The translations under genes and the position numbers were made by a program. 20,838 bases of DNA from IMG/VR virus record IMGVR_UViG_3300012936_003674, positions 1 through 20,838 of that record, one strand, 5' to 3'. Positions 4,978 through 19,222 of the stretch are shown here, one piece after another; position 1 is the stretch's first letter, and each line of letters begins with the position of its first letter. The DNA comes from a virus. The notes under the pieces are model-generated. The model was not told the origin of the DNA. It worked only from the letters and a program-made list of their open reading frames with translations, and made no database searches.

Positions 4978-6087
4978 ATGAGCACACAAGATCTTAATAA
5001 TAGCCTAGATTCTTTAGGGAAAGCAATAGTTGATCTAACTAATGCACCTAGTCCGGCACCAGAAATAAATGACCGTAGTCTAAGTGGAAATAAAATCCAT
5101 GGCGGCATGATTACTAATTTTTCAAGTAGAGGAATTAGCGATCAAGCAACACGCATGATAGTATTAATAAACGATGATGGCATTACAGTAGATGCAATTG
5201 ATGTTGATACTATATCAGGTGGTGCTACAGTGGCTGGTGATTTAAATGTAAGTGGAGCGTTAACTGCAAAAACTTTACATGTTGACGAACTTACTGCTGA
5301 CATAAGAGCGGAAAGAGCAGAGAGCTTAGAATTTGTAGGGGAACAAACTTCTGGAAAAGGTCTAATTTGGCGTTCAAATGAATATTCTAAACAATTAATG
5401 TATTACGAAAATCCAGATAGGATTTTTGTCAGTGAGCATTTAGATTTAGCACGAACAAAATATTTTAGTATTGGTACTGTTCCTGTAATTACAGAAAACA
5501 GTTTAGGTACTGGCATTATTAATAGTAATCTTAATTCTTTAGGAGTGTTAAACGAGCTTACTGTAAACGGCAATGTTCAATTTGACGACTTTCTATTTTG
5601 GGAGGCAAGTGCAAATAGGCTTGGTTTAGGAACAGAATCACCAAACGGTACTATTAGTATATTGAATGATGCACTAGATAGTGAATTTATTATTGACGGT
5701 GAATCAGCACAAGGTATAAGAATAGGAAACTGGACAAATAGTGATTTGCACATGATCACTGATGACACAACTAGATTAACTATTAAAGCAAATGGACATA
5801 TTGTTGTGGGTACACAAGGTGCAAACAATGCATCAGTAAACATACATGGCAAATTAGGAGTTGGAGTAACAAACTTAGACGCCGACGTCAGTTTATCAAC
5901 TTCAGGTCCTATTAAAGTAGAAGGTAAAAAAATGCAAAGTGGCTCGTCAGCACCTAGTACAGGTAGTTATAATTTAGGAGATATGGTCTGGAATAATAAT
6001 CCACAGCCAACTGGATATGTAGGTTGGATTTGTATTAGAGAAGGAACCCCTGGTATTTGGAAACCTTTTGGCACTATAAGTTCTTAA
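4978..6087 (+). CDS. Tail-fibre-like virion protein (369 aa)
   Basis: The product is a beta-rich, cysteine-poor protein with the composition of a trimeric phage fibre. Residues 80-108 contain the strand repeat GGATVAGDLNVSGALTAKTL, a common shaft element in marine phage fibres. Similar strand pairs recur through the centre (for instance around ELTVNGNVQF and KLGVGV). The C-terminal 45 residues carry a GDMVWN...GYVGWICI...GTPG.WKPFG pattern, a frequent terminal module of phage fibre and structural proteins. It would contribute to receptor binding or to an adapter of the tail. The start at 4978 has no ribosome-binding site but sits right behind a late promoter box. It is followed 11 nt later by a small membrane protein gene. 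Family is clear; its exact position in the virion is not. Confidence 0.8.
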   Translation: MSTQDLNNSLDSLGKAIVDLTNAPSPAPEINDRSLSGNKIHGGMITNFSSRGISDQATRMIVLINDDGITVDAIDVDTISGGATVAGDLNVSGALTAKTLHVDELTADIRAERAESLEFVGEQTSGKGLIWRSNEYSKQLMYYENPDRIFVSEHLDLARTKYFSIGTVPVITENSLGTGIINSNLNSLGVLNELTVNGNVQFDDFLFWEASANRLGLGTESPNGTISILNDALDSEFIIDGESAQGIRIGNWTNSDLHMITDDTTRLTIKANGHIVVGTQGANNASVNIHGKLGVGVTNLDADVSLSTSGPIKVEGKKMQSGSSAPSTGSYNLGDMVWNNNPQPTGYVGWICIREGTPGIWKPFGTISS

Positions 6088-6393: not shown

Positions 6394-6978
6394 ATGCTTG
6401 TAATTGGAAATGGTGAAAGTCGTATAGGTATTGACATTAACAATATCAACGGAGACAAAATTGGTTGCAATGCAATCTTAAGAGATTGTGTAGTTGACTA
6501 TTTAATTTGTGTTGATAGAAAAATGGCAAGAGAAGCAATTACCAAAAAGTATCCAGCACAAATTTATACACGTGATGACTGGTGGCATGAATTTAAAGCA
6601 TATCCTAATATGAATAAAGTTCCAAAGTTACCATATAAAGGAGACCAAAGGCCTGATGATCCTTTTCATTGGGGTAGCGGGCCTTATGCTGTTTTACTGG
6701 CATGCTTGAAAAGCGATTACATAGAACTATTGGGTTTTGATTTACATAGTAAAAATAAGAACATTAACAATGTTTATAAAGATACACAAAATTACAACCA
6801 AAGCGACCACAGAGCGATTGATCCTAGATATTGGATATACCAAATTGGAAAACTAATGTCTATCTATCCACAAAAAAGTTTCAAAATATACCAAGAAAAG
6901 GGTTGGAATTTACCAGAAGTCTGGAATCACCCAAATGTTTCACTTGACTTTATAAGTAATATATCGTATAATACATAA
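6394..6978 (+). CDS. Rossmann-like protein resembling GT42 sialyltransferase / DUF115 proteins
   Basis: The 194-aa product starts directly with a nucleotide-binding-like strand and loop, MLVIGNGESR (1-10), then CN at 25-26, a strand DYLICVDR (35-42), GSGPYAVLLACL (94-105) and YIELLGFDL (109-117), with His139 after it. The order GNGxS, CN, SGxYAxxxA and E(I/L)xLxGxD is the pattern of the CstII-type sialyltransferase family GT42 and the related DUF115 proteins, which handle sugar nucleotides such as CMP-sialic acids. If correct, the enzyme could alter host surface glycans or a virion component. It is shorter than CstII (about 290 aa). The full catalytic set cannot be verified by eye. The start is fixed by the GNGES strand, which leaves no room for a later ATG. 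Confidence 0.55.
   Translation: MLVIGNGESRIGIDINNINGDKIGCNAILRDCVVDYLICVDRKMAREAITKKYPAQIYTRDDWWHEFKAYPNMNKVPKLPYKGDQRPDDPFHWGSGPYAVLLACLKSDYIELLGFDLHSKNKNINNVYKDTQNYNQSDHRAIDPRYWIYQIGKLMSIYPQKSFKIYQEKGWNLPEVWNHPNVSLDFISNISYNT
6944..6972 (+). promoter_or_regulatory. Sigma-70-type promoter for the QueD-UvdE operon
   Basis: TTGACT at 6944-6949, a 17-nt spacer and a perfect TATAAT at 6967-6972. The promoter lies inside the 3' end of the preceding gene. The predicted start near 6979 gives a leader of about 60 nt before the ATG at 7040. Confidence 0.8.
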
Positions 6979-7039
6979 TATATAGGACTTGGCGTCAACC
7001 CTTCTAATTCTGCCGCCGTATTTTATTAGGAGAAAACAT

Positions 7040-7489
7040 ATGGCAAAATACTTATCGACTAAAACATACGGACACAACATTGGTCTATCAGCAGTGTTCC
7101 GTCAACCACATGCAGATCATTCACACTGTAGATTCTTGCATGGTTACAGTTTACAATTTAAATTTACATTTGGCTGTGACAAATTAGATCATCGTAACTG
7201 GTGTGTAGACTTTGGTGGACTAAAGCCACTTAAAAAATGGTTAGAAGATACATTTGATCATCAAACAGTAATTGATATAAATGATCCGATGAAAGACGAA
7301 TTACTATTACTTCAAACAAAAGGACTAGCACAAATTACACAACTAGATGGAGTAGGCGCAGAAAAGTTTGCAGAACATGCATGGCGCTTTGCGGATAAAC
7401 TAGTTCGTGAAATGTCCGATGGACGTTGTTGGTGTGTAAGTTGTGAATGTGCTGAACATGGTGCAAACTCTGCTATCTATGAGGCATAA
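7040..7489 (+). CDS. queD: QueD / 6-pyruvoyl-tetrahydropterin synthase family protein
   Basis: The ATG at 7040 is chosen because AGGAG lies at 7028-7032 and the family's N-terminus begins there; the frame is open further upstream only through a TTG. The 149-aa product shows HSHCRFLHGYSL (27-38) with the putative catalytic Cys30, VDFGGLK (56-62), FDHQ (72-75, Asp73/His74) and ECAEHGANSAIYE near the end (substrate-binding Glu139). These fit the PTPS/QueD fold, which converts dihydroneopterin triphosphate into a pterin such as 6-carboxytetrahydropterin, the second step of 7-deazaguanine synthesis. The usual HGH zinc motif reads HGY here (34-36), so a nearby His (24, 27 or 29) may supply the third ligand. 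No queC, queE or folE lies in the window. Confidence 0.85.
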   Translation: MAKYLSTKTYGHNIGLSAVFRQPHADHSHCRFLHGYSLQFKFTFGCDKLDHRNWCVDFGGLKPLKKWLEDTFDHQTVIDINDPMKDELLLLQTKGLAQITQLDGVGAEKFAEHAWRFADKLVREMSDGRCWCVSCECAEHGANSAIYEA

Positions 7490-7496
7490 TGAATAA

Positions 7497-8408
7497 ATGG
7501 TTAAAAAGTATTATCCTGGCGAATCAAAAGAACAACGGAAAGCACGTAAGGCAAGAGAAAAATCAACAGGAGTCAAAGAAAAACTTCAGGTTCCTAAAGT
7601 TGAAAATCCACCTAAGGCAGTTGTTACAACAAATCCTCCTCCAGCACAAGTTGTTGAAAGAGATCCTGTTGTCAATAAAGATCGCTGGGCTAAAGGTTTT
7701 GAACCATATTCAAAAAGATATATTGCTTGTCTCAAACATGGTAACAAATATTCTGCAGAATATGTCAACAAATTATATTTTATGGCGAAGCGTAATTTAA
7801 CACTTCCATTTGAATTTGTATGTTTTACAGAAAACCCTGCAGACTTAGACAAGAATATTAGAGTGCAACCTTTACCAAGACGTAAAGTTTCAGGCTGGTG
7901 GCATAAACCAGGATTTTTCGATCGTGACTTACCTATACAAGGTACAGTCCTTTATTTAGACCTAGATGTAATTATATTTAGAAACATAGACAAACTATTC
8001 ACATATCAACCAGGCAAGTTTTGTATTATTAGAGATTTCAATAGAAGTAATGTACCAGGTTATCACAAATTTAACAGCAGTTGTTTTAGATTAGAAACTG
8101 GACAACATCCATACGTCTATGAAGAATTTATGAAAGCACCTGAGCAATATAGTAAAAAATTTCACGGAGACCAAGACTGGTTGTATCATATGATTAAAAC
8201 AGACTATCAGTATTGGCCAGATAATTGGTTACAAAGTTATAAATGGGAAATGCGTAAAAGAGCACCTATGCAAAGAGTAAATGGAGTAAGAAACTTTGTT
8301 TCACCTGGTCGACCTGATATTTTAGATGATACTGCTATAGCAGTATTTCACGGAGAACCTAATCCACATAATTGTGTTGATCCGTGGTGTAAGGAGAATT
8401 GGTACTAA
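7497..8408 (+). CDS. GT-A glycosyltransferase (GT8-like)
   Basis: The ATG at 7497 follows the queD stop by 7 nt, with a GAGG about 14 nt upstream. The 303-aa product has a basic, Pro-rich N-terminal extension (1-60), then a GT-A core: strand RYIACLKHGNKY (74-85), FEFVCFTENP (105-114), the metal-binding DxD in LYLDLDVIIF (152-161; Asp155, Asp157), FNSSCFRLE (192-200), GDQDWL (224-229) and FHGEPNPHN (284-292), where His285 is a likely metal ligand. This order is typical of GT8-like retaining enzymes, which transfer a sugar from a nucleotide sugar. The acceptor may be a glycan, protein or modified base. It lies between QueD and two oxygenases. The alternative 312-nt frame starting at 7489 is not supported. 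Confidence 0.8.
   Translation: MVKKYYPGESKEQRKARKAREKSTGVKEKLQVPKVENPPKAVVTTNPPPAQVVERDPVVNKDRWAKGFEPYSKRYIACLKHGNKYSAEYVNKLYFMAKRNLTLPFEFVCFTENPADLDKNIRVQPLPRRKVSGWWHKPGFFDRDLPIQGTVLYLDLDVIIFRNIDKLFTYQPGKFCIIRDFNRSNVPGYHKFNSSCFRLETGQHPYVYEEFMKAPEQYSKKFHGDQDWLYHMIKTDYQYWPDNWLQSYKWEMRKRAPMQRVNGVRNFVSPGRPDILDDTAIAVFHGEPNPHNCVDPWCKENWY
8329..8346. repeat. Perfect 18-bp palindrome
   Basis: ATACTGCTATAGCAGTAT at 8329-8346 equals its own reverse complement. It lies within the 3' part of the glycosyltransferase gene (codons for residues 278-284), about 60 nt before the first oxygenase gene. It has no loop, so a protein-binding site or chance is more likely than a hairpin. Confidence 0.6.
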
Positions 8409-9022
8409 TGCAAAACAATAAAGGTTTGAAGAAAAAATTAACAAGTTTATTTCCTGTTAATATTATGAAATTTAAATTACAAGACTCATATGAACATTGG
8501 GAAATGTTAAAACAAGAAGTAAAAGAATATGAAAGTAGAGAACTTGATATAGTTGAAGGAGATGCGAAAACAAGTTTTGCAGAAGATTGGAGAATAAGAA
8601 GTTATCTCCTAGACAAGTATCCAGAACTAGAAAGTTTAATGTTGTCATGTGTAAGTGAGTTTTGTTACTACAATAGTGTTGAACCTTTAGAATTATTTGA
8701 TAGTTGGTTTACTATTATGAATAAAGGTAGTAGAGTACAAAGACACAGACATGAAGGAAGTGTAATAAGTGGTACACTATTTTTAAACATGCCAGAAGGA
8801 AGTCACGGATTAGCATTTAGTAATCCAACTATTCCATATAGGATGTATGAAAAAATCAACAACAGGAATGACAGTTATTCTTATGCTCATCTTGAAGAAG
8901 TTGAAAATTATGATTTACTATTATATCCTAGTTGGTTAGAACACTTTGTGCCTAAAATTACATGTGATAATAGAATTACAATTAGCTTTAATACTGATTA
9001 TCCAAGATATAAAAAATTATGA
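8408..9022 (+). CDS. 2OG-Fe(II) oxygenase family protein, copy 1
   Basis: The start at ATG 8408 overlaps the preceding TAA (TAATG), with AAGGAG at 8391-8396. An in-frame TTG at 8399 is too close to that Shine-Dalgarno sequence. The 204-aa product carries the pattern of the PF13759/TIGR02466 putative 2OG-Fe(II) oxygenases: HRHEGSVISGTLFL (113-126), LLYPSWLEHFV (171-181, distal His179) and RITISFNTDY (189-198, 2OG-binding Arg189). These jelly-roll enzymes use iron, oxygen and 2-oxoglutarate to hydroxylate a substrate. The substrate of this phage group is unknown to me. The stop overlaps the next ATG (ATGA), and the next gene is a paralogue. Confidence 0.8.
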   Translation: MQNNKGLKKKLTSLFPVNIMKFKLQDSYEHWEMLKQEVKEYESRELDIVEGDAKTSFAEDWRIRSYLLDKYPELESLMLSCVSEFCYYNSVEPLELFDSWFTIMNKGSRVQRHRHEGSVISGTLFLNMPEGSHGLAFSNPTIPYRMYEKINNRNDSYSYAHLEEVENYDLLLYPSWLEHFVPKITCDNRITISFNTDYPRYKKL

Positions 9023-9600
9023 TAATACAAAAACATACACAAGATATCTTTCCTACTTTAATAATGAAGTTTGACCTAAGTCAACATCCACATTACAACA
9101 GAGTGTTAGAAGTTGTTGAAAAAACAAAAACAAGTTATCATATGATAATGAAAGATAGCGAAAGTTCTTACAGCGAAAAGACAGGTAACGCTTGGTTAGA
9201 TCATTTACTACTTGGTGATTTTAAAGATGCACTTCAGCATTGTGTTAATGAATGGGCAACTTCATATGGTGTTAAAAACTGTGTAATTAGTAATAGTTGG
9301 ATGAATAGGGTAGGTGTTGGCGGTGCAGTAAAAAGCCACAGGCATGAACTTAGTATAGTTAGTGGTGCTTTTTACCCTATTGCAGATAAAGATAGCACAC
9401 CATTAAAGTTTAAATCACCTTTGAGTATGTATAGAATGCACGAGTTTTTGGTAAAAGAAACTCTTTACACAGAGGCCCATCATAGTGTACAATGTAAACA
9501 AGGAGAGCTTATATTATTTCCGAGTTGGTTAGAACACTATACAGATGATAATGAAACACAAACAAGAGTAACAGTGAGTTTTAATACAAAATATGCATAA
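9019..9600 (+). CDS. 2OG-Fe(II) oxygenase family protein, copy 2
   Basis: It starts in an ATGA overlap with copy 1. The 193-aa product has the same landmarks: SHRHELSIVSGAFY (106-119), LILFPSWLEHY (164-174, distal His173) and RVTVSFNTKY (183-192, Arg183). The N-terminus (FPTLIMKFDL, 11-20) also parallels copy 1 (FPVNIMKFKL, 15-24). The two are divergent tandem paralogues, both with intact predicted metal and cosubstrate residues, so both are probably active but on different substrates or as a heteromer. The 3' end overlaps the UvdE start by 8 nt. Confidence 0.8.
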   Translation: MIIQKHTQDIFPTLIMKFDLSQHPHYNRVLEVVEKTKTSYHMIMKDSESSYSEKTGNAWLDHLLLGDFKDALQHCVNEWATSYGVKNCVISNSWMNRVGVGGAVKSHRHELSIVSGAFYPIADKDSTPLKFKSPLSMYRMHEFLVKETLYTEAHHSVQCKQGELILFPSWLEHYTDDNETQTRVTVSFNTKYA

Positions 9601-10678
9601 GAGAATAGGTTTTGCATGTAAGTACATGCACCCAGATCAAACACAAAAGAAAAAGTTACTAGAAGAAATTCAGCGACCGCTAAATACTCGAAGCACAACT
9701 GTTGCATGGCTTAATAGACAAACAAGAGAAGTAGCAGAGCAACGCTTGTGGGATATCATGGTTCATAACATTCAATCTTACATGAACCTTATTACCTATG
9801 TTGGAGGACTACCTAATGAATTACGTATGGTTAGACTTGGTAGCGATGTGCTTCCTGTTTATACCGAGCCTACTTGGTCTTATTTTTGGCGTAAGCCTGA
9901 TGTTGAAGCGTACTGCGAAAAAAACTTCGCGAACGTTGGCAGACAGGCAAGAGCCCTCGATGTCCGATTATCGATGCACCCAGGCCAATTTACTGTACTT
10001 GCAAGCGACAACCAAGACATTGTCGAAAGATCGATAGAGGAGTTTGAATATCATGTTAATTGCATCAGATGGATGGGCTATGGCCAATCGTTCCAAGACT
10101 TCAAATGTAACGTCCATATATCAGGCAGACAGGGTCCAGCCGGTATCAAACACGCAGTCAACAAAAGATTATCTCCGGAGGCGAGAAATACAATTACCAT
10201 CGAGAACGATGAAAACAAATGGGGCATCGAGGCGAGCCTCGAGTTGGTCGAAACATGTGCCCTCGTTCTCGACATACACCATCACTGGGTCAATTCAAAC
10301 GAATATATTTTACCAACCGACGATAGATTTTTACGCATAGTAGAAAGTTGGCGTGGTGTTAGACCTGTGATACATTATTCTGTATCAAGAGAAGATTTGC
10401 TAGTAAATCATGATACAAAAATTTTACCCAATATGAATTCTTTACTTGAACAAGGCTACAAAAAAGCAAAACTTAGAGCACACTCAGACTACATGTGGAA
10501 CGATGCTGTTAATGACTGGGCATTAAGTTTTTGGGATTCTGCTGATATTATGGTTGAATCTAAGGCAAAGAATTTAGCGAGCATAAAACTGCTAGATCAC
10601 TACAATAAATATATAACCAAAGGAGATTTATGGCAGGATACAAAGCGCCAACAGGACGTCCTAAGCCACGTAACATAA
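9593..10678 (+). CDS. uvdE: UV damage endonuclease UvdE
   Basis: The 361-aa product matches UvdE, a TIM-barrel, metal-dependent endonuclease that nicks DNA 5' of cyclobutane dimers, 6-4 photoproducts and other lesions. Visible family motifs: IGFACKY (5-11), HPGQF (129-133), FEYH (151-154), NVHISG (173-178), TIENDE (202-207), LDIHHHW (226-232), PVIHYS (258-263), RAHSDYM (295-301) and IMVESKAK (319-326), which supply the His, Glu and Asp residues of the metal cluster. It overlaps the preceding gene by 8 nt and shares its last 49 nt with the following small gene. Codons for about residues 105-245 are far richer in C and G than the flanks. It provides light-independent repair, useful for a virus exposed at the sea surface. 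Confidence 0.95.
   Translation: MHKRIGFACKYMHPDQTQKKKLLEEIQRPLNTRSTTVAWLNRQTREVAEQRLWDIMVHNIQSYMNLITYVGGLPNELRMVRLGSDVLPVYTEPTWSYFWRKPDVEAYCEKNFANVGRQARALDVRLSMHPGQFTVLASDNQDIVERSIEEFEYHVNCIRWMGYGQSFQDFKCNVHISGRQGPAGIKHAVNKRLSPEARNTITIENDENKWGIEASLELVETCALVLDIHHHWVNSNEYILPTDDRFLRIVESWRGVRPVIHYSVSREDLLVNHDTKILPNMNSLLEQGYKKAKLRAHSDYMWNDAVNDWALSFWDSADIMVESKAKNLASIKLLDHYNKYITKGDLWQDTKRQQDVLSHVT
9907..10330. other. GC-rich, TCGA-dense patch inside uvdE
   Basis: Within this stretch third positions shift to C or G (GTC, CTC, ATC, GAC, TTC, CAC). The row 10201-10260 has 32 G+C of 60, against 18 of 60 in row 8521-8580. Nine TCGA tetranucleotides fall between 9957 and 10272; only about that many occur in all the rest of the window. 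The boundaries are approximate. Confidence 0.65.
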
Positions 10679-11359: not shown

Positions 11360-11716
11360 ATGGCTATAATGACTCTAACTGACTCAGCAAAAAACAAAAT
11401 CAACACATTATGTACAGAAACAGGAAACTGGGCTGTCAGCCTAAACCTTAAAGGTGGTGGTTGTGCTGGATTTGAATATGACTGGGGTTTTACAAATGAA
11501 AGTGAATTAGAGCAGGGAGACGAAATTATAGAAACAGGTTCAGGACGTTTAGTAATTAATTCTACAAGTATTATGTTCTTAGTTGGAACAGAACTTGATT
11601 ATAAAAATGAAGTATTTGGAAGTATGTTTGATATACGTAATCCAAATGCTCAAAGTTCATGCGGTTGTGGAGTAAGTGTGAACTTTGATATGGATAAATT
11701 AACCATACCTGCTTAG
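11360..11716 (+). CDS. A-type iron-sulfur cluster carrier (IscA/ErpA/HesB family)
   Basis: The 118-aa product shows the three cluster-binding cysteines of A-type carriers in their usual setting: GGGCAGFEY (Cys35) and SSCGCG (Cys101, Cys103), with the LTDSAKNKI start and the FDIRNPNAQ strand leading to the last motif. Length is normal for the family. These proteins bind an Fe-S cluster or iron and pass it to apo-proteins. Copies in marine phages are regarded as host-derived auxiliary genes. It has a GGGGTGA Shine-Dalgarno sequence and sits 12 nt upstream of the giant fibre gene, so the two are almost certainly one transcript. It could keep host Fe-S enzymes active or supply metal to phage proteins; the sequence does not decide which. 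Confidence 0.92.
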   Translation: MAIMTLTDSAKNKINTLCTETGNWAVSLNLKGGGCAGFEYDWGFTNESELEQGDEIIETGSGRLVINSTSIMFLVGTELDYKNEVFGSMFDIRNPNAQSSCGCGVSVNFDMDKLTIPA

Positions 11717-11728
11717 TTGGAGTAAAAA

Positions 11729-14700
11729 ATGGCAAGAGAAATAATTGATATTGGCGTAGAAGGTAACGACGGTACCGGTGATAGTATTCGTGAATCCTTT
11801 CGTAAGGTAAACGAAAACTTCCAAGAAGTATATGCTGTCTTTGGTATAGGAGGTCAAATTACTTTTAGCACATTAAGTGATGTGCCAGGAAGTTATACAG
11901 GACAAGCCAATAAAATTTTAGCAGTCAAAAGTGGCGAAGATGGAATTGAATTTTTAGAATTAGTTTCAGACGGTGCTGTTACAGGTGATCCGTTAGATGA
12001 TACAATAGTATTCAACGTTACACTAGGCGGCAAACTATTAGTACAAGCAGGTAGAACAAAGGTACAAGGTGATCCAGATCCACAATTAGCAGGTCATCTA
12101 AATGCAGACAGTTACGGAATAGGTAATGTAAGTATTACTGATGCTACAGCCAGTGCTTTCACTACAAAGTATGGCGGTAACTTTACTATACACGATCTAG
12201 TTCCAGACAAACAATATACAGACCAAAGATACGCTAAGGCAATGGAACCAGGTAAAATGGGCGGAGTACGTTCAGAACCTGCAGATGCAAGCGAATATAC
12301 ATTAGACATAACTGGTGTTACAAGCACACAAAATTTACAAGTTACAGGTCATGGATTAGATAGAGCAAGTAATGGTGTTCAGTACAAATATGAAACAGTT
12401 GGCGGTTCTTTAGGTGGACTAACTGATGATACACTTTACTTTATTAATGTAATTGATAATGATACTATAAGTTTACACAGTACCAAAGCTGATGCTTTAG
12501 CTGGTACAAATAATATTTTAATATCAGGAACTGTCGCACCTAGTACGCATACACTTACTGATACACAATACGATTCAGATTTAGAAGGATTTTATTTAAA
12601 GACAGAAGCACTTCCTCGTGATGCAATAGTAAGACGTCAAGGTGATAGAATGACAGGCGCTTTATATGCACATGATCATCCAGGTGCTCTTGCAGGAAGT
12701 CCTCCATTAGCGGCAGATGATTTACAAGTTGCAACTAAACTATATGTTGATCAAGCTGAAACAACATCTAGTACAAATTTATATGTAAGCACATCAGGTG
12801 ATGATGGATTAGAAGTAACTAGTCCAGGTAAAGTAGGACGTTCTCCTAGTTATGCATTTAGATCAATAGGAGCGGCGGCACGTAAAGCTGAAGAATTACA
12901 AATTGCGGCAAAATTTGAATTAGGAAACTATGCACAAACAATCACACATAGTAGTTTCAGTACTCCAGTTACAGTAACTTCGGCAGATGTAAAAACTATT
13001 CCATCAGGTAGAGGTAATTTACGTACACTATTTGATGAAAACAAAAAGTTTATATTAGAAGAAACAATAGAATTTGTTAATGCAACATATCCTAACTTTG
13101 TTTACAATCAAGAAATATGTAAACGTGATGTTGGATTAATTTATGAAGCAGTGAAGTTAGATGTTCTTTCAGGAGATAATGCTAACTTTTTATCAAGAAG
13201 AGCTGGTATAAGATATTATGCTAATGCTAGTGCTATTGCGGCAAGAACTACACAAAGAACAGAAACTAAAGCGGCAATCAACTTTGCAAAAGGTTTAACA
13301 AATTTAGTATTGCAAAATACACAACCTTCACAAACATACAATACACTTTTTACACAATATATAAATTTATCTCTCTCAACTACAGTTACTGATAGAGCGG
13401 CAGTAGATGCAAAATTTGATATTGTAACTGACATAATAGATGATGGAGATGTATTCAAAGCACCTGCTATAATTGATGGAAGCACTTATAAAATTACTAT
13501 GCCTAACGGTGTGCAAAATGATTTCGTAGACCAAGGTAATCCGGATAATACTGATATTCTTCCTGGTAAAATTGTACGTGGTAAAGAATCAGGTGCTATA
13601 GGTAGAGTAATTGATTATCTTAGTGAAAATTTAAATAATACTAATCCTGTCGATACAGACATATTAGAATTACAACTTTTAGAACCTATTGAATTTATAG
13701 TTGGTGAACAGTTAGAGTACGCTAATACAATTAAATTTGGACAAATAAGTTTAAGAGTAGAATCAGGTACTTATGAAGAAGACTTCCCGATAAGATTACC
13801 AGCTAACGTATCTATCAAAGGTGATGAATTTAGACGAGTAATTATTAGACCAAAAAATCAAGCATCACAATCACCTTGGGCTAACGTGTACTTTTATAGA
13901 GATCAAGAGTTTGATAACCTACAAGGTACTAATTTAAGTATTACAGGTGTTCCTGACACAAACTTACCAACAGGTGGATTCCGTTATGTTGACCCTTTAA
14001 CAGGTAATCCTATAGGATTCTTTGGTAGACATTATCTTGTTGATCCAACTCAAGATATTAATATTGGAAACTTCGGACAATCAAATCCAGGAGGATTTTC
14101 TAATGCGGCCGCATTAATAAGATATAATGTTGATTACATTGCGGCAGAATTAATTGCATGGATTAACACACAGATTTCTGGAAATATTGCTCCTTTTACA
14201 AGTTCGTTTACTTATAGCCAAACAAAATGTTTAAGAGATACGAAATTAATTTTGAGAGGTATTGCTACTGATTTAGAAAAAGGCGGACGTAAAGAATCAT
14301 TACGTAACCAAGGTATGTATTATGCAGGCGCAGTGTCTGGTCAAGAAGATGAAACAAGTGCGGCAATTTTAAGATTAAAAACTTATATAAGTGCGATTCT
14401 TGCAAATACAGCATTCAGCAGTTTACAGAGTGGCCAAGACCAAATTATTGACACAAGAAAAACAACAGAGTCGGGTGCTAATGCAAATGCTGACTCGTTG
14501 ATAGACTGTGTAAATTTTGCTTTCAACGCAAGCTACAATCCACCTAAAAACAATAGACAGATAGATGTATTCATGTGTAATGATGGTACTATTGTTAGAA
14601 ACTTGAGTGTTACAGGACATGGTGGCTTTATGATGGTACTTGATCCAGAAGGACAAGTTTTAACTAAATCACCATACTGTCAAACAGGTTCAAGTTTTTC

Positions 14701-17700
14701 ACAATCTTTAAACAGACAAGCATTTAGAGGTGGTATGTTAGTTGATGCGTTCACAGGAAACTTACCTATGGACGTTGTTGGCAAAACAAATAATTTTGTG
14801 ATACAAGTCGAATCGCCAACTGGACAAGGATTGTTTATTAGAAAACCTCAAGTACCTGCTCCATTCTATATGGAAGGTAGACGTTTTCAAGTTAATGCTG
14901 TTCGTAATTGGGATCAAGTAAATGGTACAGCAGAACTAATCTTAGATCCAAGTTCAAACCCAGATAATAATAATTTAGGACAAGGATTTACAGGAACTGT
15001 ATACGGTTCTGTAGATTTAGATACAGTTAGTTCTATAAACAGAGTTGAAATCACTGTACAGACTGCTGGTGCAAGATCTATGCTAGGTAATGACTTTACA
15101 CAGGTAAACGACTTAGGTTATGGACTTGTCGTTAATAACGGTGGTTTATCAGAAATGGTATCACAGTTTACATATTATTGTTGGACTGCTTATTATGCAA
15201 ACAATGGATCAGAGATTAGATCATTGAATGGTTCAAATGCTTACGGTGAATTCGGGCTTGTTGCTAACGGAAGTGATCCAAATGAAATTCCTGATGCTGT
15301 AACACTACGTGATCACATGGTTAAAAATGCCAAGGTTGCTATTGCAGAAACTTTCTTAGAATTTACTAATCCAATAGGTTTGGTGCCTGCTGTAGCAGAA
15401 CAAGGTCAAATTATAACACAATCAGGTGGTGCAAGTGGTACTGTTGTTTTTGAAACAGCTGGTAAAAAAATTGCACTAAAAAATGTTACAGGTACTTTTG
15501 ATACAACTGGTGCATGTACACTTAACGGTAGTACTGTAATTGGTGTGCCAAATGATGTAAGTAACCCTGCTTTAAGTGCAAACCAAGAACAAATTAATTT
15601 ATATGTATTTGACTTAGAAAGTTTACCTCAGTCGCGTGGTGAAATTGATATTATTCATCCAAACGGAACAAAGTCACGTTATGAAGTATCTAGTGTTGCA
15701 CCAGTTAAAGATTTTAGGGTAGACGGACATATTGATGTGGCATATACTGCAACTGCCACAGGTAGTAATGCAGAATTTGACGTACAAAAAATATTACAAA
15801 ATAAAGATAGCACAGGTACAGGTGACTATGTTGCTCATATTAGATCAGCTGGTACAGGTTACACAGTAGGAGATACTTTTGTAGTTGACGGTACACAATT
15901 AGATGGTGCTACTTCAACTAATGATTGTACAATTACAGTAGCTTCTGTAAGTGGTTTAGGTGCAATTACTTCTGTTACAGCAAGTGGTACTATAGTTGAA
16001 TTAAAAAATACTCCTATTTTTGATGGACAAGTTGTTAAGTTTACATTTAGTACTGCTACAAGTGGATATGATAACGATGGTTTGACAACTGCTTTAGATG
16101 AAGAACACTTTGTAACTTATAGACATAACCAAACATTTATTGTTGATAATGTTTTAGACGTACAACGTTTAACTATACGTCCAAGTACTGCGTTTGAATT
16201 TGATGAAAAACCAGGATTTACATATAGAACAACTACATTTACAGCAAGGGATCCATATGATGACTTGCCTGATAACCAAGTGTTAATGGGTGTTGATGCA
16301 ACTTATGACTATGTAAGAATTATTGTTGATGAAAATCATACAAGTGATGCAGTACAACCAGGATTTGGTGGTGCTACACTAGGAGCAACTAAAGGTGACG
16401 TTGGTATTGCTATTGAAGAACTTACAGAAATACAAGATATTGAAAGACTAAGAGCAGGCGGGCATATATTTGTTTGGGACGGTAAATTACACAGAGTAAT
16501 AGATTACATTCCAAGAGCCGGATTTGCTATTGTTAAGTTTACAGATGTAAGTGATCCTTTCACACCTAATGGTTATATTGATCACAACAAAACAGGTAAT
16601 GCGCCAGGACTTCATAGTAGTGTAGTGTTAAGTGGTACACAATCTAATACACTGCGTTGTGGTTTAATTCAAGGGTCACCTGGTGATATCACAATACAAA
16701 TTTCATTAACAAGAGCAACAGGACATGACTTCTTAGACATTGGTACTGGTAGTTACAACCAAACAAACTATCCACAAGTACTATTAGGACAGGGTAGACA
16801 AAATCAACAAGCAAACGAAGTACAAGAACGTGATAAAGGTAGAGTATTCTACGTAAGTACTGACCAAGATGGTTTCTTCCGTGTAGGTAGATTCTTTACA
16901 GTTGACCAAGGAACTGGTACAGTTACATTCGCAGGTAGTATTGCATTATCTAACTTAGATGGTATTGGTTTTAAACGTGGTGTTGTTGTTGCTGAATTTA
17001 GTACTGACGACGGTATGACACAAAATGCTTCAGACATTGTGCCAACACAAAATGCTGTACGTGGATATGTTAATAGACGTTTAGGTTGGGATCATAATGG
17101 TTTAGCAGTAAGTAATATTATTGGTGGTGGTGCAGTTGCTAGAGACGGTTCTACAGCAATGATAGGTAACTTAAATTTAGGAAGTTTCAAAATATATAAC
17201 TTAGGTGCACCGACACAAGGAAGTGACGCCGCTACAAAAAATTATGTAGATCAAGTTGCTTCAAGTTCTAACAGTTTAGATCTATTACGTGATGTAGCGG
17301 TAATGAAACCGTCAATAGATAGTGCAATAGCTGATAGATCTTTTTATGACGGACAACTATTACATTTCACAGGAAATAAAATATTATTATTAGATGCAAC
17401 TACAATACAAGACGGTCCATTTGTAACAACATTCAACAATTCAATTATTGAATCAGGAAGTGCAAAAGGTTGGGTACGTAGAGTAGAAACAGTAGTTGAT
17501 GCTGTGATTGGTAACGCAATAAAAATAACTTACAATGAACTATTTGGCGGAGCGGCATTTACAGGAAGTGGTGCAGTAACACAGAAAAATTTAGTTAGAG
17601 GATTGTCTTCACCTGCTATTACATACAACGGTGAAGTAAGTAACACTGGAGTAGATGCACAGTTTTGGATTTCACAAGGACTTGCATATGAAATTCAATT

Positions 17701-19222
17701 AATTGGAAATCCAGGTACTCTTTACGCACAAAATGAAACATTTACAGTACCAGGAACATTATTCCCAGGAGGTTCTTCTCCTGCAAATGATGCAACTATA
17801 ACTATTACTGCGGTAAACGGTGGCGGCGGAATAACAAGTGCAAGTATTACAGGAACAACAGGTTTAACTACAGTTCCTATATGTGATCAAGCAGGTGTTG
17901 CGCCATTACTAGAACATGCTAACGGAAGAGCGGCAAGTAATAGTCAAGTAGAATTTAACACATCTACAGAACAAGATTATTTTTCTGTAGCTTACATGAT
18001 AAAAGATGACAGTATTGTTAATGCTGATGTAAACAGTGCGGCAGAAATTGCACAAAGTAAATTAGATATGAATGCCGCAACTACAAGAGCAGATGCAGTT
18101 GGAATTGCACAAGCTGATTTAGGACTAGCGGCATTTGATGCTGATGACTTCGATGTTACAGACGGATGGGTAACACTTAAAGGTGGTGCAGTTGACTTAG
18201 CAGACATCGAAGAAATTGCAGACTTAACAGCATTGGGTAACATAAGCGGTGCAAGTGCAACGCCTACAGAAGTTCCTATTTCATCTACGGGTGGTAATGA
18301 TAGTTTAGTTCTTACAAAGAGCGATGGTAAGATTAGAACGACTGGTTTAATAGTTGGAGCGGCGGATAGTTACACTATTTTGCAACCAAAGACTGGTGCG
18401 GCTACAACTATACAAATGCTAACACCAGGTGGTGCTACAATATTTGAAGCAACAGGTACTAGTGATATTACAGCAGAGTTTGGTGCAAGTATTGATATTG
18501 ATGGCAGTGGTGCTGATACGCAAAGCACTTTGCAACAAAATTCTACCTTTGCTAATGAAGGACGTTTAAGTTCAGATTGGATTTACACACAATTTATAGA
18601 AGCGGCAAATGAAAAAGGCACAGGTTCTACAGGTATTGCTTTAGGCGCAGGTACTGGTAAAACTAATGCAGGTGAAATTAGTTTACTAGTTGCAGATGGT
18701 GCGGCAACAAAAGCACCATTTAAGTTTAGTGCGTCAGGCGTATTACCAGATGTCAATAACACATACAGCATTGGTAGTTCAACTTTAAAATACAATACAG
18801 TGTATGCAACAGTATTTAATGGAACAGCAACACAAGCTCGTTATGCTGACTTAGCTGAAAATTATCTAGCAGATAAAGAATATGAAGTTGGTACTGTAAT
18901 AATGCTAGGTGGAAACAAAGAGGTTACACAAAGCACAACTAAAGATGATACAAGAACAATAGGAGTTGTAAGCGATAAACCAGCATACCTAATGAACAGC
19001 GAATTACAAGGTGATTACAGCACACCAGTTGCGTTAACAGGTCGTGTTAAATGTAAAGTCATTGGCGTAGTAAATGCAGGTGACATACTTGTTGCAAGTT
19101 CAATAGCAGGTCATGCGATGGTTAACAATGATCCAAGAGTTGGTAGTGTTATTGGTAAAGCAATAGAAAGCAAAACTGATAGCGGACAAGGTTTAATAGA
19201 AATAGTAGTAGGGAAAGTGTAA
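11729..19222 (+). CDS. Giant tail-fibre / virion structural protein (2497 aa)
   Basis: One uninterrupted frame with GGAG before the ATG. Residues 5-37 form an N-terminal module (DIGVEGNDGTGDSIR, then a KVNENFQEVY helix) typical of marine T4-like fibres and shared with the next gene. About 300-340 holds GDRMTGALYA...ATKLYVDQ and 1806-1842 the related GSTAMIGNLNLG...AATKNYVDQ, a common fibre repeat. Residues 350-390 start a pectate-lyase-like beta-helix (YVSTSGDDG); ANVSIKGDEFRRVIIRP near 692 belongs to it. Two helical insertions share a YxQxxCxRDxxLI motif (Cys464, Cys834). Two GxxY..F.V beta modules lie near 1370 and 1990. The last 128 residues (from ARYADLAENY, about 2370) resemble C-terminal trimerisation or intramolecular-chaperone domains of phage fibres. 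Probable host-recognition fibre. Confidence 0.85.
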   Translation: MAREIIDIGVEGNDGTGDSIRESFRKVNENFQEVYAVFGIGGQITFSTLSDVPGSYTGQANKILAVKSGEDGIEFLELVSDGAVTGDPLDDTIVFNVTLGGKLLVQAGRTKVQGDPDPQLAGHLNADSYGIGNVSITDATASAFTTKYGGNFTIHDLVPDKQYTDQRYAKAMEPGKMGGVRSEPADASEYTLDITGVTSTQNLQVTGHGLDRASNGVQYKYETVGGSLGGLTDDTLYFINVIDNDTISLHSTKADALAGTNNILISGTVAPSTHTLTDTQYDSDLEGFYLKTEALPRDAIVRRQGDRMTGALYAHDHPGALAGSPPLAADDLQVATKLYVDQAETTSSTNLYVSTSGDDGLEVTSPGKVGRSPSYAFRSIGAAARKAEELQIAAKFELGNYAQTITHSSFSTPVTVTSADVKTIPSGRGNLRTLFDENKKFILEETIEFVNATYPNFVYNQEICKRDVGLIYEAVKLDVLSGDNANFLSRRAGIRYYANASAIAARTTQRTETKAAINFAKGLTNLVLQNTQPSQTYNTLFTQYINLSLSTTVTDRAAVDAKFDIVTDIIDDGDVFKAPAIIDGSTYKITMPNGVQNDFVDQGNPDNTDILPGKIVRGKESGAIGRVIDYLSENLNNTNPVDTDILELQLLEPIEFIVGEQLEYANTIKFGQISLRVESGTYEEDFPIRLPANVSIKGDEFRRVIIRPKNQASQSPWANVYFYRDQEFDNLQGTNLSITGVPDTNLPTGGFRYVDPLTGNPIGFFGRHYLVDPTQDINIGNFGQSNPGGFSNAAALIRYNVDYIAAELIAWINTQISGNIAPFTSSFTYSQTKCLRDTKLILRGIATDLEKGGRKESLRNQGMYYAGAVSGQEDETSAAILRLKTYISAILANTAFSSLQSGQDQIIDTRKTTESGANANADSLIDCVNFAFNASYNPPKNNRQIDVFMCNDGTIVRNLSVTGHGGFMMVLDPEGQVLTKSPYCQTGSSFSQSLNRQAFRGGMLVDAFTGNLPMDVVGKTNNFVIQVESPTGQGLFIRKPQVPAPFYMEGRRFQVNAVRNWDQVNGTAELILDPSSNPDNNNLGQGFTGTVYGSVDLDTVSSINRVEITVQTAGARSMLGNDFTQVNDLGYGLVVNNGGLSEMVSQFTYYCWTAYYANNGSEIRSLNGSNAYGEFGLVANGSDPNEIPDAVTLRDHMVKNAKVAIAETFLEFTNPIGLVPAVAEQGQIITQSGGASGTVVFETAGKKIALKNVTGTFDTTGACTLNGSTVIGVPNDVSNPALSANQEQINLYVFDLESLPQSRGEIDIIHPNGTKSRYEVSSVAPVKDFRVDGHIDVAYTATATGSNAEFDVQKILQNKDSTGTGDYVAHIRSAGTGYTVGDTFVVDGTQLDGATSTNDCTITVASVSGLGAITSVTASGTIVELKNTPIFDGQVVKFTFSTATSGYDNDGLTTALDEEHFVTYRHNQTFIVDNVLDVQRLTIRPSTAFEFDEKPGFTYRTTTFTARDPYDDLPDNQVLMGVDATYDYVRIIVDENHTSDAVQPGFGGATLGATKGDVGIAIEELTEIQDIERLRAGGHIFVWDGKLHRVIDYIPRAGFAIVKFTDVSDPFTPNGYIDHNKTGNAPGLHSSVVLSGTQSNTLRCGLIQGSPGDITIQISLTRATGHDFLDIGTGSYNQTNYPQVLLGQGRQNQQANEVQERDKGRVFYVSTDQDGFFRVGRFFTVDQGTGTVTFAGSIALSNLDGIGFKRGVVVAEFSTDDGMTQNASDIVPTQNAVRGYVNRRLGWDHNGLAVSNIIGGGAVARDGSTAMIGNLNLGSFKIYNLGAPTQGSDAATKNYVDQVASSSNSLDLLRDVAVMKPSIDSAIADRSFYDGQLLHFTGNKILLLDATTIQDGPFVTTFNNSIIESGSAKGWVRRVETVVDAVIGNAIKITYNELFGGAAFTGSGAVTQKNLVRGLSSPAITYNGEVSNTGVDAQFWISQGLAYEIQLIGNPGTLYAQNETFTVPGTLFPGGSSPANDATITITAVNGGGGITSASITGTTGLTTVPICDQAGVAPLLEHANGRAASNSQVEFNTSTEQDYFSVAYMIKDDSIVNADVNSAAEIAQSKLDMNAATTRADAVGIAQADLGLAAFDADDFDVTDGWVTLKGGAVDLADIEEIADLTALGNISGASATPTEVPISSTGGNDSLVLTKSDGKIRTTGLIVGAADSYTILQPKTGAATTIQMLTPGGATIFEATGTSDITAEFGASIDIDGSGADTQSTLQQNSTFANEGRLSSDWIYTQFIEAANEKGTGSTGIALGAGTGKTNAGEISLLVADGAATKAPFKFSASGVLPDVNNTYSIGSSTLKYNTVYATVFNGTATQARYADLAENYLADKEYEVGTVIMLGGNKEVTQSTTKDDTRTIGVVSDKPAYLMNSELQGDYSTPVALTGRVKCKVIGVVNAGDILVASSIAGHAMVNNDPRVGSVIGKAIESKTDSGQGLIEIVVGKV

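Follow-up and report, generated by a model that had tools for sequence, protein, structure and literature searches.

Introduction

Phage DNA can carry 7-deazaguanine modifications, as in the 9g, CAjan and Iggy types, and a 2023 paper reportedly describes further DpdA subfamilies and dCDG. In E. coli, the zinc ligands of QueD, a 6-carboxytetrahydropterin synthase, are His16, His31 and His33. The QueD of phage 9g was shown to replace E. coli QueD (PMC6884629), and HGH closes each of the three published PTPS motifs, further subfamilies being stated to exist (PMC5041015). Class I preQ1 riboswitches of types I-III have AC or UC directly before the 3' strand of helix P1 (PMC11625349), and this C pairs with the side of the ligand that resembles guanine (PMC11625349, PMC10622847). 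Here we analyzed a marine virus of bacteria that carries queD, starting from the entire virus record IMGVR_UViG_3300012936_003674 (20,838 bases, hereafter the window), in which queD is preceded by a conserved leader RNA and followed by genes for a glycosyltransferase (GT) and two 2-oxoglutarate (2OG) oxygenases (OG1 and OG2). We propose, with a probability of about 0.55, that this queD belongs to a phage 7-deazaguanine pathway and stands behind a pseudoknot that binds a 7-deazaguanine, and that the GT and the oxygenases are separate cargo.

A covarying leader RNA is fixed to queD

A conserved block of ~40 nt lies directly after the promoter, at 6982-7021, followed by AGGAG and by the queD ATG at 7040; it was absent from the sequence-only reading, which had described the four genes from queD to OG2. 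The leader fits an H-type pseudoknot with two helices, P1 and P2, both of which exist in compensatory versions: GAGG/CCUC, AAGG/CCUU, UAGG/CCUA and GUGG/CCAC for P1, and GGCG/CGCC, AGCG/CGCU, GUGU/ACAC and GACA/UGUC for P2. Among 107 distinct copies, the outer P1 pair is G-C in 45, A-T in 33, T-A in 3, T-T in 14, C-T in 10 and something else in 2, the window itself having a T-T mismatch (6983/7003).

For covariation, 34 of the 80 distinct copies, making up 33 distinct rows, were compared with 500 shuffles. Results showed 89.4% paired cells (80.4 in shuffles), 26 cells changed on both sides (shuffled mean 7.3) and a covariation score of 0.238 (0.095 in shuffles), none of the 500 shuffles reaching any of these values, which the relatedness among copies inflates, as it does the other shuffle tests. 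Two covarying helices are therefore found, though a control in which the register was slid by +3 also scores high, with 13 double-changed cells and 71.4% paired; all other slides reduce the first three measures. In some divergent copies P2 is in a shifted register and is scored as unpaired by the alignment. Moreover, the longest helix between the P2 loop and tail had a mean of 3.78 over 51 distinct combinations, versus 3.04 with shuffled partners (0/500). The ordinary folding energy of three leaders gave no signal (z 0.34, -0.83, -0.18). A -10-like hexamer is present in 80 of the 107 leaders, and in 71 of these 80 the element lies 8-17 nt after it.

We also scanned the viral collection with DNA patterns for three leader versions, blind to protein. 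The main version was found in at least 119 stretches and lies ahead of queD in 119 of 119 matches listed, the GTGG version in 6 of 6 and the GAGG version in 72 of 73, the exception having just 67 nt left at the edge of its locus. Among the matches listed, 197 of 198 copies of all versions thus directly precede queD, a gene of queuosine/7-deazaguanine synthesis. A looser pattern over 508 sequences (6.0 Mb) gave 239 matches, 236 of them ahead of queD, in a count that is not independent as these loci were largely gathered via queD or the leader; the exceptions were a GTGG copy (L435), which precedes queD according to the other count, and two matches to one GC-rich bacterial site.

A covariance model was run on 1.18 Mb, including 27 of 80 loci with a TGT-like gene (see below), both long contigs of relatives and seven isolate loci with QueD. 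It matched the window, G011 and L123 (E 1e-4), each time ahead of queD, the last two being outside the set used for building the model. Nothing further was found with E below 1 in these 1.18 Mb, and no copy preceded FolE, QueE or the TGT-like gene. In addition, the P1 3' strand is preceded by AC in 101 and by UC in 6 of the 107 distinct leaders, although the search pattern itself demanded CCC. A literature search, largely of titles and abstract starts, retrieved no description of a phage queD leader RNA, which by itself does not prove novelty.

The queD product belongs to a CxxxHGY subtype

The queD product matches PF01242 (6.4e-14, 52.4 bits, cut-off 22.4) and phrog_2389 (1.5e-40), and its score against the TIGR03367 equivalog (38.5 bits) lies under the cut-off of 89.25. 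The CxxxHGH motif is changed: the second His of HGH is Tyr in 92 of 92 phage sequences (65 distinct), and the residue aligned to E. coli His16 is Phe in 91 and Tyr in 1, in an alignment whose E. coli sequence is confirmed over its first part by a PDB alignment. Cys30, His34, Asp73, His74 and Glu139 are invariant in the 92 phage proteins. The AlphaFold model (mean pLDDT 88.8) has a predicted fold matching 4ntk, 7v0f and 3jyg. As 9g QueD is of the canonical type, its complementation of E. coli does not extend to the CxxxHGY subtype.

The change is common to all six isolate phages aligned. In Iggy, BcepGomr, RHEph04 and MMDA13, genes for QueE, QueC, FolE and a DpdA/queuine transferase adjoin the CxxxHGY queD, and BUCT-ZZ01 has QueE, a PRT and FolE near it; in Moby, none of QueE, QueC, FolE, PRT or DpdA was found within 6 kb of queD. 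The subtype is also bacterial. A genome scan with patterns favouring FRQ or HSHC returned 34 loci, and the 14 genomes behind 15 examined loci contain 19 PTPS matches, of which 15 are of the FRQ...HGY type. In 10 of these 14 genomes, whose completeness is unstated, it is the sole PTPS found. All 14 genomes have a TGT, and QueC exceeds the cut-off in 7, falls short of it with 111-121 bits in 5 and is weakly matched in 2 (4, 5 and 1, respectively, among the 10 genomes with a single PTPS). We take the CxxxHGY subtype as a putative working QueD, which raises the question of how a PTPS-fold enzyme works with two of its zinc ligands replaced.

Other 7-deazaguanine genes lie at a distance from queD in long relatives

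Pathway genes were searched in as many as 62 records, with 49 for some families; absences are weak, since many records are fragments. G011 (146 kb) shares its island with the window. The single QueD found in this contig lies in the island, at 5.0 kb, and genes for a TGT-like protein, ORF353, PRT, HhH, FolE and QueE lie at 61-70 kb. In G078:C57 (335 kb), the island starts at 66 kb, QueD is at 72 kb and the same cluster is at 133-141 kb. In these two contigs, the longest with the island, the distance from QueD to the start of the downstream cluster is thus 56 and 61 kb. G078:C57 (also L120) is filed in a Neomarinimicrobiota assembly with its phage island and cluster, and is probably a misbinned large phage.

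Matches for FolE and strong matches for QueE (E near 1e-53) come from the same 6 of 49 records; weaker QueE matches in nine further records are taken for other radical-SAM proteins. PRT is found in 17 of 49 records and the TGT-like gene in 8 of 45, both including these six, and in five contigs (G049, G052, G053, G055 and G058) TGT-like, FolE, PRT, QueD and QueE stand side by side. We found no QueC in the two longest island contigs, the PF06508 match of G011 being below the cut-off and covering 64 of 210 positions. Over the 62 records, three QueC matches had E below 0.001, of which one passed the cut-off, only together with neighbouring pieces, in a 580-aa frame of G014. DpdA of phrog_887 was detected in 0 of 49 records and in 3 of 3 DpdA phages used as positive control.

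Searches against Pfam, PHROGs, NCBIfam, PDB sequences and a DpdA1 alignment gave no match for the 484-aa TGT-like protein of the cluster (P0001). Results showed that it has DSGGFQ and further landmarks in order, which we take to be TGT motifs; DSGGFQ is present in 10 of 11 bacterial TGT sequences and the remaining one has DSGGYQ. Aligned by hhalign with these 11 TGTs, P0001 scored 35.1 (P 0.001), compared to 20.9 for a QueD alignment, 17.4 for a GT alignment, 17.8 for the reversed profile and at most 22.2 for 30 column shuffles; this test gave 19.4 for known DpdA1. The protein thus combines profile similarity to TGT with ordered motifs while lying outside the known DpdA family (phrog_887), and its sequence suggests a DNA-guanine transglycosylase. 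Its neighbours, in the best 80 of at least 600 TGT-like viral loci, include ORF353 in 72, PRT in 56, FolE in 46 and QueE in 26. Before the TGT-like protein was recognised, the empty DpdA search had suggested PRT as a loader of the base for nucleotide incorporation, an idea that was weakened by this recognition.

The presence of FolE, QueE, TGT-like and PRT genes in the two longest contigs favours a base role for QueD, in a 7-deazaguanine pathway whose product probably ends in DNA.

Related arrangements were observed elsewhere. In Pseudomonas phage PA5oct (L258, 5995-11323), a TGT-like/ORF353 pair annotated as hypothetical lies near a QueE-like gene, and the DNA of this phage may be modified. 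Vibrio phage 2.275.O has a TGT-like relative near a QueF-like reductase, a QueC relative and FolE. A fuller cluster is on contig L125 (710-9572), with QueE, PRT, QueD, FolE and QueC (PF06508, 6e-52), and possibly, by eye, a short TGT-like protein (phrog_19058) and an amidotransferase-like gene. The window itself has at 19-240 a piece resembling the HhH-GPD-type DNA repair protein that follows the PRT gene in G011. We considered it as a sign of the cluster just left of the window and keep it only as a lead, since the same gene is located between lig and orf431 in the record of L007 and in G078.

The oxygenases lie in an exchangeable slot and, with the glycosyltransferase, look like separate cargo

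The island was compared over 91 loci, made of the best 80 of at least 595 confirmed queD matches and 11 loci from a GT query. Genes scoring over 40 were queD in 91 loci, iscA in 51, GT in 44, uvsE and the right tail fibre in 42 each, the left tail fibre in 41, the upstream gene in 37, OG2 in 11 and OG1 in 9. The OG1+OG2 pair is present in 9 of the 42 loci having both GT and uvsE, and all nine stem from the GT query, being the nearest relatives of the window; an OG2-like gene occurs in 2 further loci of this set, in one of them ahead of queD. The slot between GT and uvsE is empty in 12 of the 42 loci, where the uvsE open frame starts 4-31 nt past the end of the GT frame, and elsewhere is occupied by a DHODH-like protein (L022, PF01180 6e-16), an NAD/FAD reductase (L051) or a phosphomannomutase (L025, PF03332 6e-26). 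Each kind of slot gene was identified by Pfam scan in one example, and the other loci were assigned by reading translations. In the L025 group, moreover, a gene for a DAHP/KdsA-type synthase separates queD from GT. Given the varied content of the slot, we regard the region from one tail fibre to the other as a carrier of exchangeable cargo.

The GT matches phrog_1962 (9.9e-27) and reaches 13.8 bits with Pfam GT8 (PF01501), under the cut-off of 24.3. It has the features of the GT-A/GT8 fold with a DxD motif, invariant in 32 sequences, and the top Foldseek match of its predicted structure is an LgtC entry. Both oxygenases belong to PF13759 and lie barely above the TIGR02466 cut-off, OG2 also having weak PhyH and cupin matches below cut-off. 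Pfam scans at E up to 0.1 found no TET/JBP family in them, in agreement with the sequence-only reading that they are not of this type. Relatives of OG2 occur in 77 phage records, 70 of which are named Synechococcus, Prochlorococcus or cyanophage; back-translated oxygenase patterns used to fetch relatives gave no matches. The GT and the oxygenases more likely act on glycans or proteins of the virion or surface, a view supported solely by their position between tail-fibre genes and by the sugar-metabolism genes that relatives have in their islands.

Gene run, promoter and flanking features of the window

The features of the window are collected in Table 1. Matches in Pfam, PHROGs and TIGR families confirmed the four gene calls from queD to OG2, and their nearly overlapping ends hold: queD and GT are 7 nt apart, GT and OG1 meet at TAATG, and OG1 and OG2 overlap at ATGA. 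The coupled run extends past 9600, as uvsE starts at 9593 and overlaps OG2 by 8 nt. The promoter, which had been called strong, matches 11 of 12 consensus positions in a region where the count of promoter-like sites is near chance (27 observed, 23.8 expected, sd 4.4); it is nonetheless conserved, with TATAAT in 28 of 37 leaders and TTGAC-N15-19-TATAAT in 23 of 37.

Table 1. Coordinates of the features described in the window (positions of the 20,838-base record).
Feature	Position	Strand	Basis or remark
Tail-fibre-like protein, left flank of island	4978..6087	+	comparison of island flanks
Upstream gene	6394..6978	+	phrog_30607; function unassigned, GNGESR motif
Sigma-70-like promoter TTGACT-17-TATAAT, within 3' end of upstream gene	6944..6972	+	consensus match, conserved
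Conserved leader RNA, H-type pseudoknot candidate	6982..7021	+	covariation, alignment of leaders
Leader P1	6984-6986 with 7000-7002		C 6999 precedes P1 3' strand
Leader P2	6991-6994 with 7014-7017
Shine-Dalgarno AGGAG of queD	7028..7032	+	read directly
queD, QueD-like 6-carboxytetrahydropterin synthase, CxxxHGY subtype	7040..7489	+	PF01242, phrog_2389
GT, GT8-like (GT-A fold) glycosyltransferase	7497..8408	+	phrog_1962, DxD at residues 155-157
OG1, 2OG-Fe(II) oxygenase, cargo	8408..9022	+	PF13759/TIGR02466
OG2, 2OG-Fe(II) oxygenase, cargo	9019..9600	+	PF13759/TIGR02466; PDB relatives 2rg4, 3bvc
UvsE/UvdE UV-damage endonuclease	9593..10678	+	PF03851
ErpA/IscA-like iron-sulphur protein, near right end of island	11360..11716	+	family matches
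2,497-aa tail fibre, right flank of island	11729..19222	+	comparison of island flanks

Relatives of two further genes of the island recur in the 91 queD/GT loci: that of the gene at 6394-6978 precedes queD in 37, and that of the ErpA/IscA-like carrier gene (11360-11716) is present in 51. A further gene of the same run, at 730-1578, is predicted to encode a polysaccharide lyase (PF14099, 1.7e-19), whose N-terminus looks signal-like by eye.

A model for the queD leader and the readings that compete with it

In the model that we propose, queD would encode the CPH4-forming enzyme of a phage 7-deazaguanine pathway, with FolE, QueE, the TGT-like transglycosylase and PRT encoded elsewhere in the genome. 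Transcription would most likely begin just upstream of P1, so that the ~40-nt knot would be the first feature of the mRNA, where it would probably fold around a 7-deazaguanine as class I preQ1 riboswitches do. The knot with bound ligand may then alter access to the nearby ribosome-binding site and tune QueD output, in either direction. Where no QueC was found, the pathway would yield 7-carboxy-7-deazaguanine (CDG) or a derivative; as it would go no further, CDG is the favoured ligand. PRT may recycle the guanine freed by base exchange.

Several results weigh against this model. Two further covariation measures were less distinctive, namely the number of pairs with a double change (4, reached in 12 of 500 shuffles) and of further pair types (8, reached in 275 of 500), and the +3 slide outscored the proposed register (0.286 vs 0.238). 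The element is present in 37 of 88 queD leaders (L002-L092), that is, in 32 of 42 GT-linked leaders, leaving 10 without it, versus 5 of 46 that are not GT-linked, and the covariance model matched neither the queD of G078 nor those of the isolates searched. FolE, QueE, PRT, TGT-like and QueC genes are all missing from the 20,838 bases of the window. The sequence-only reading had proposed looking for other 7-deazaguanine genes, and these are indeed found in the two longest island contigs, as FolE, QueE, TGT-like and PRT; QueC is not among them, phrog_887 DpdA is missing from all 49 records, and the third longest, G010 (107 kb), lacks FolE, a strong QueE and TGT-like. The base role of QueD is thus favoured on the strength of two relatives with a distant cluster, though G010 does not share it. 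G054 (133 kb), which has QueD without GT, also lacks FolE, a full-strength QueE and TGT-like. Moreover, the hhalign probability assigned to the TGT match is just 21%. As for the known riboswitches, no Rfam preQ1 model fits well, the best being RF01054 (preQ1-II, 12.8 bits, E 8.7) in the L084 leader, and the Shine-Dalgarno of 113 of 115 leaders is located outside P2, 8-25 nt past the conserved TCYGC block. A switch in which the leader pairs with AGGAG was also rejected, as 92 of 200 partner shuffles were equally good. For RF00522, the leaders of the window, L010 and L084 gave no match even with E allowed up to 10, and no Rfam family matched above its cut-off, the best weak matches being freshwater-2 (E 1.3), Mu-gpT-DE (3.4) and preQ1-II (8.7). 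Considering the missing Rfam match, the position of the Shine-Dalgarno outside the knot and the failure of the anti-Shine-Dalgarno model, we regard the leader as a candidate preQ1-I-like riboswitch that is not preQ1-I itself.

The leader could instead be a regulatory RNA of another kind, with a phage or host protein, perhaps QueD, binding the knot, or with the knot protecting the 5' end. The element lies almost at the predicted transcript start, it has no good Rfam match and its strict association with one gene would suit autoregulation; we consider this possible, though less likely than a riboswitch, as the leader shares its AC/UC and its H-type layout with class I preQ1 aptamers and the controlled gene is in the same pathway. 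Conservation as DNA (a promoter or operator), or merely through recent common descent, could account for the strong primary-sequence conservation and for the conserved promoter immediately upstream, yet both helices show compensatory changes across divergent versions, which makes such an explanation very unlikely.

Other alternatives concern the role of QueD. It might boost queuosine or pterin synthesis of the host instead of modifying phage DNA, given that the CxxxHGY subtype occurs in bacteria with a TGT and that 48 phages have pathway genes and no DpdA, queuosine boosting being one option named for them (PMC6884629). This appears unlikely, since FolE and QueE adjoin the phage TGT-like protein and since the two long contigs have no QueC, a gene set that cannot by itself make preQ0. 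The sequence-only reading had in turn suggested that QueD, GT and the two oxygenases act in sequence, a base or glycan being made, hydroxylated and glycosylated as in base J or hypermodified phage DNA. The nearly overlapping ends and the single predicted promoter agree with one pathway, and the oxygenase pair, where found, is intact and under purifying selection (pN/pS 0.29-0.48 in twelve comparisons with the window). The comparison of the operon across relatives, which that reading had itself named as a check, showed the pair in 9 of 42 comparable loci, unrelated enzymes or nothing filling its slot elsewhere, while a DAHP/KdsA-type gene is interposed between queD and GT in one group. In another lineage QueD adjoins FolE, PRT and QueE without GT, and in the two longest island contigs its partners are in the distant cluster. 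On these gene-content patterns we reject the idea that the four genes hydroxylate and glycosylate in sequence, and consider a single pathway highly improbable; GT and the oxygenases look like separate, exchangeable cargo rather than steps in the pathway of QueD.

In its most specific form, our proposal is that marine T4-like phages have a new riboswitch class of preQ1-I-like architecture, sensing a phage-made 7-deazaguanine (e.g., CDG) and controlling a QueD with an altered zinc site, a tentative view to which we give somewhat less than even odds. If true, an RNA would place the modification of phage DNA bases under the control of its own product or precursor. A metabolite-sensing RNA on a base-modification gene would show how a costly DNA modification tracks supply, and the riboswitch would extend the natural 7-deazaguanine aptamers beyond those for preQ1. 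Moreover, the TGT-like/PRT/FolE/QueE cluster singles out marine phages whose DNA may be examined for 7-deazaguanine.

Comparison with known systems

The GT shares the GT-A fold and DxD with the GT8 family (LgtC, glycogenin, P1 PmgQ), PmgQ of P1 being ~26% identical, and differs by an N-terminal extension of ~70 aa, modelled with low confidence. The oxygenases, of PF13759, are unlike the TET/JBP-type oxygenase of the base J system. They share PF13759 and phrog_81 with the TIGR02466 2OG-Fe(II) oxygenases of cyanophages, from which the window differs by having an adjacent pair in an exchangeable slot.

With QueD/PTPS-I the window protein has in common PF01242, the aligned Cys30, Asp73, His74 and Glu139 and the predicted fold of 4ntk, 7v0f and 3jyg; it differs in having CxxxHGY for CxxxHGH and Phe at the position of E. 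coli His16. As in the phage 7-deazaguanine DNA modification systems of the 9g, CAjan and Iggy types, FolE, QueD, QueE and a transglycosylase-like protein are encoded in the long relatives. These differ in that no QueC and no phrog_887 DpdA were found, in that PRT is part of the cluster and in that the 484-aa TGT-like protein has no family match.

Compared to preQ1-I (types I-III, RF00522), the leader has its Shine-Dalgarno outside the knot and precedes the queD of phages whose genomes yielded no QueC. In both cases, a small H-type pseudoknot stands at the 5' end of a 7-deazaguanine gene, with AC or UC before the P1 3' strand, whose C is the ligand-specificity base in the known members (PMC11625349).

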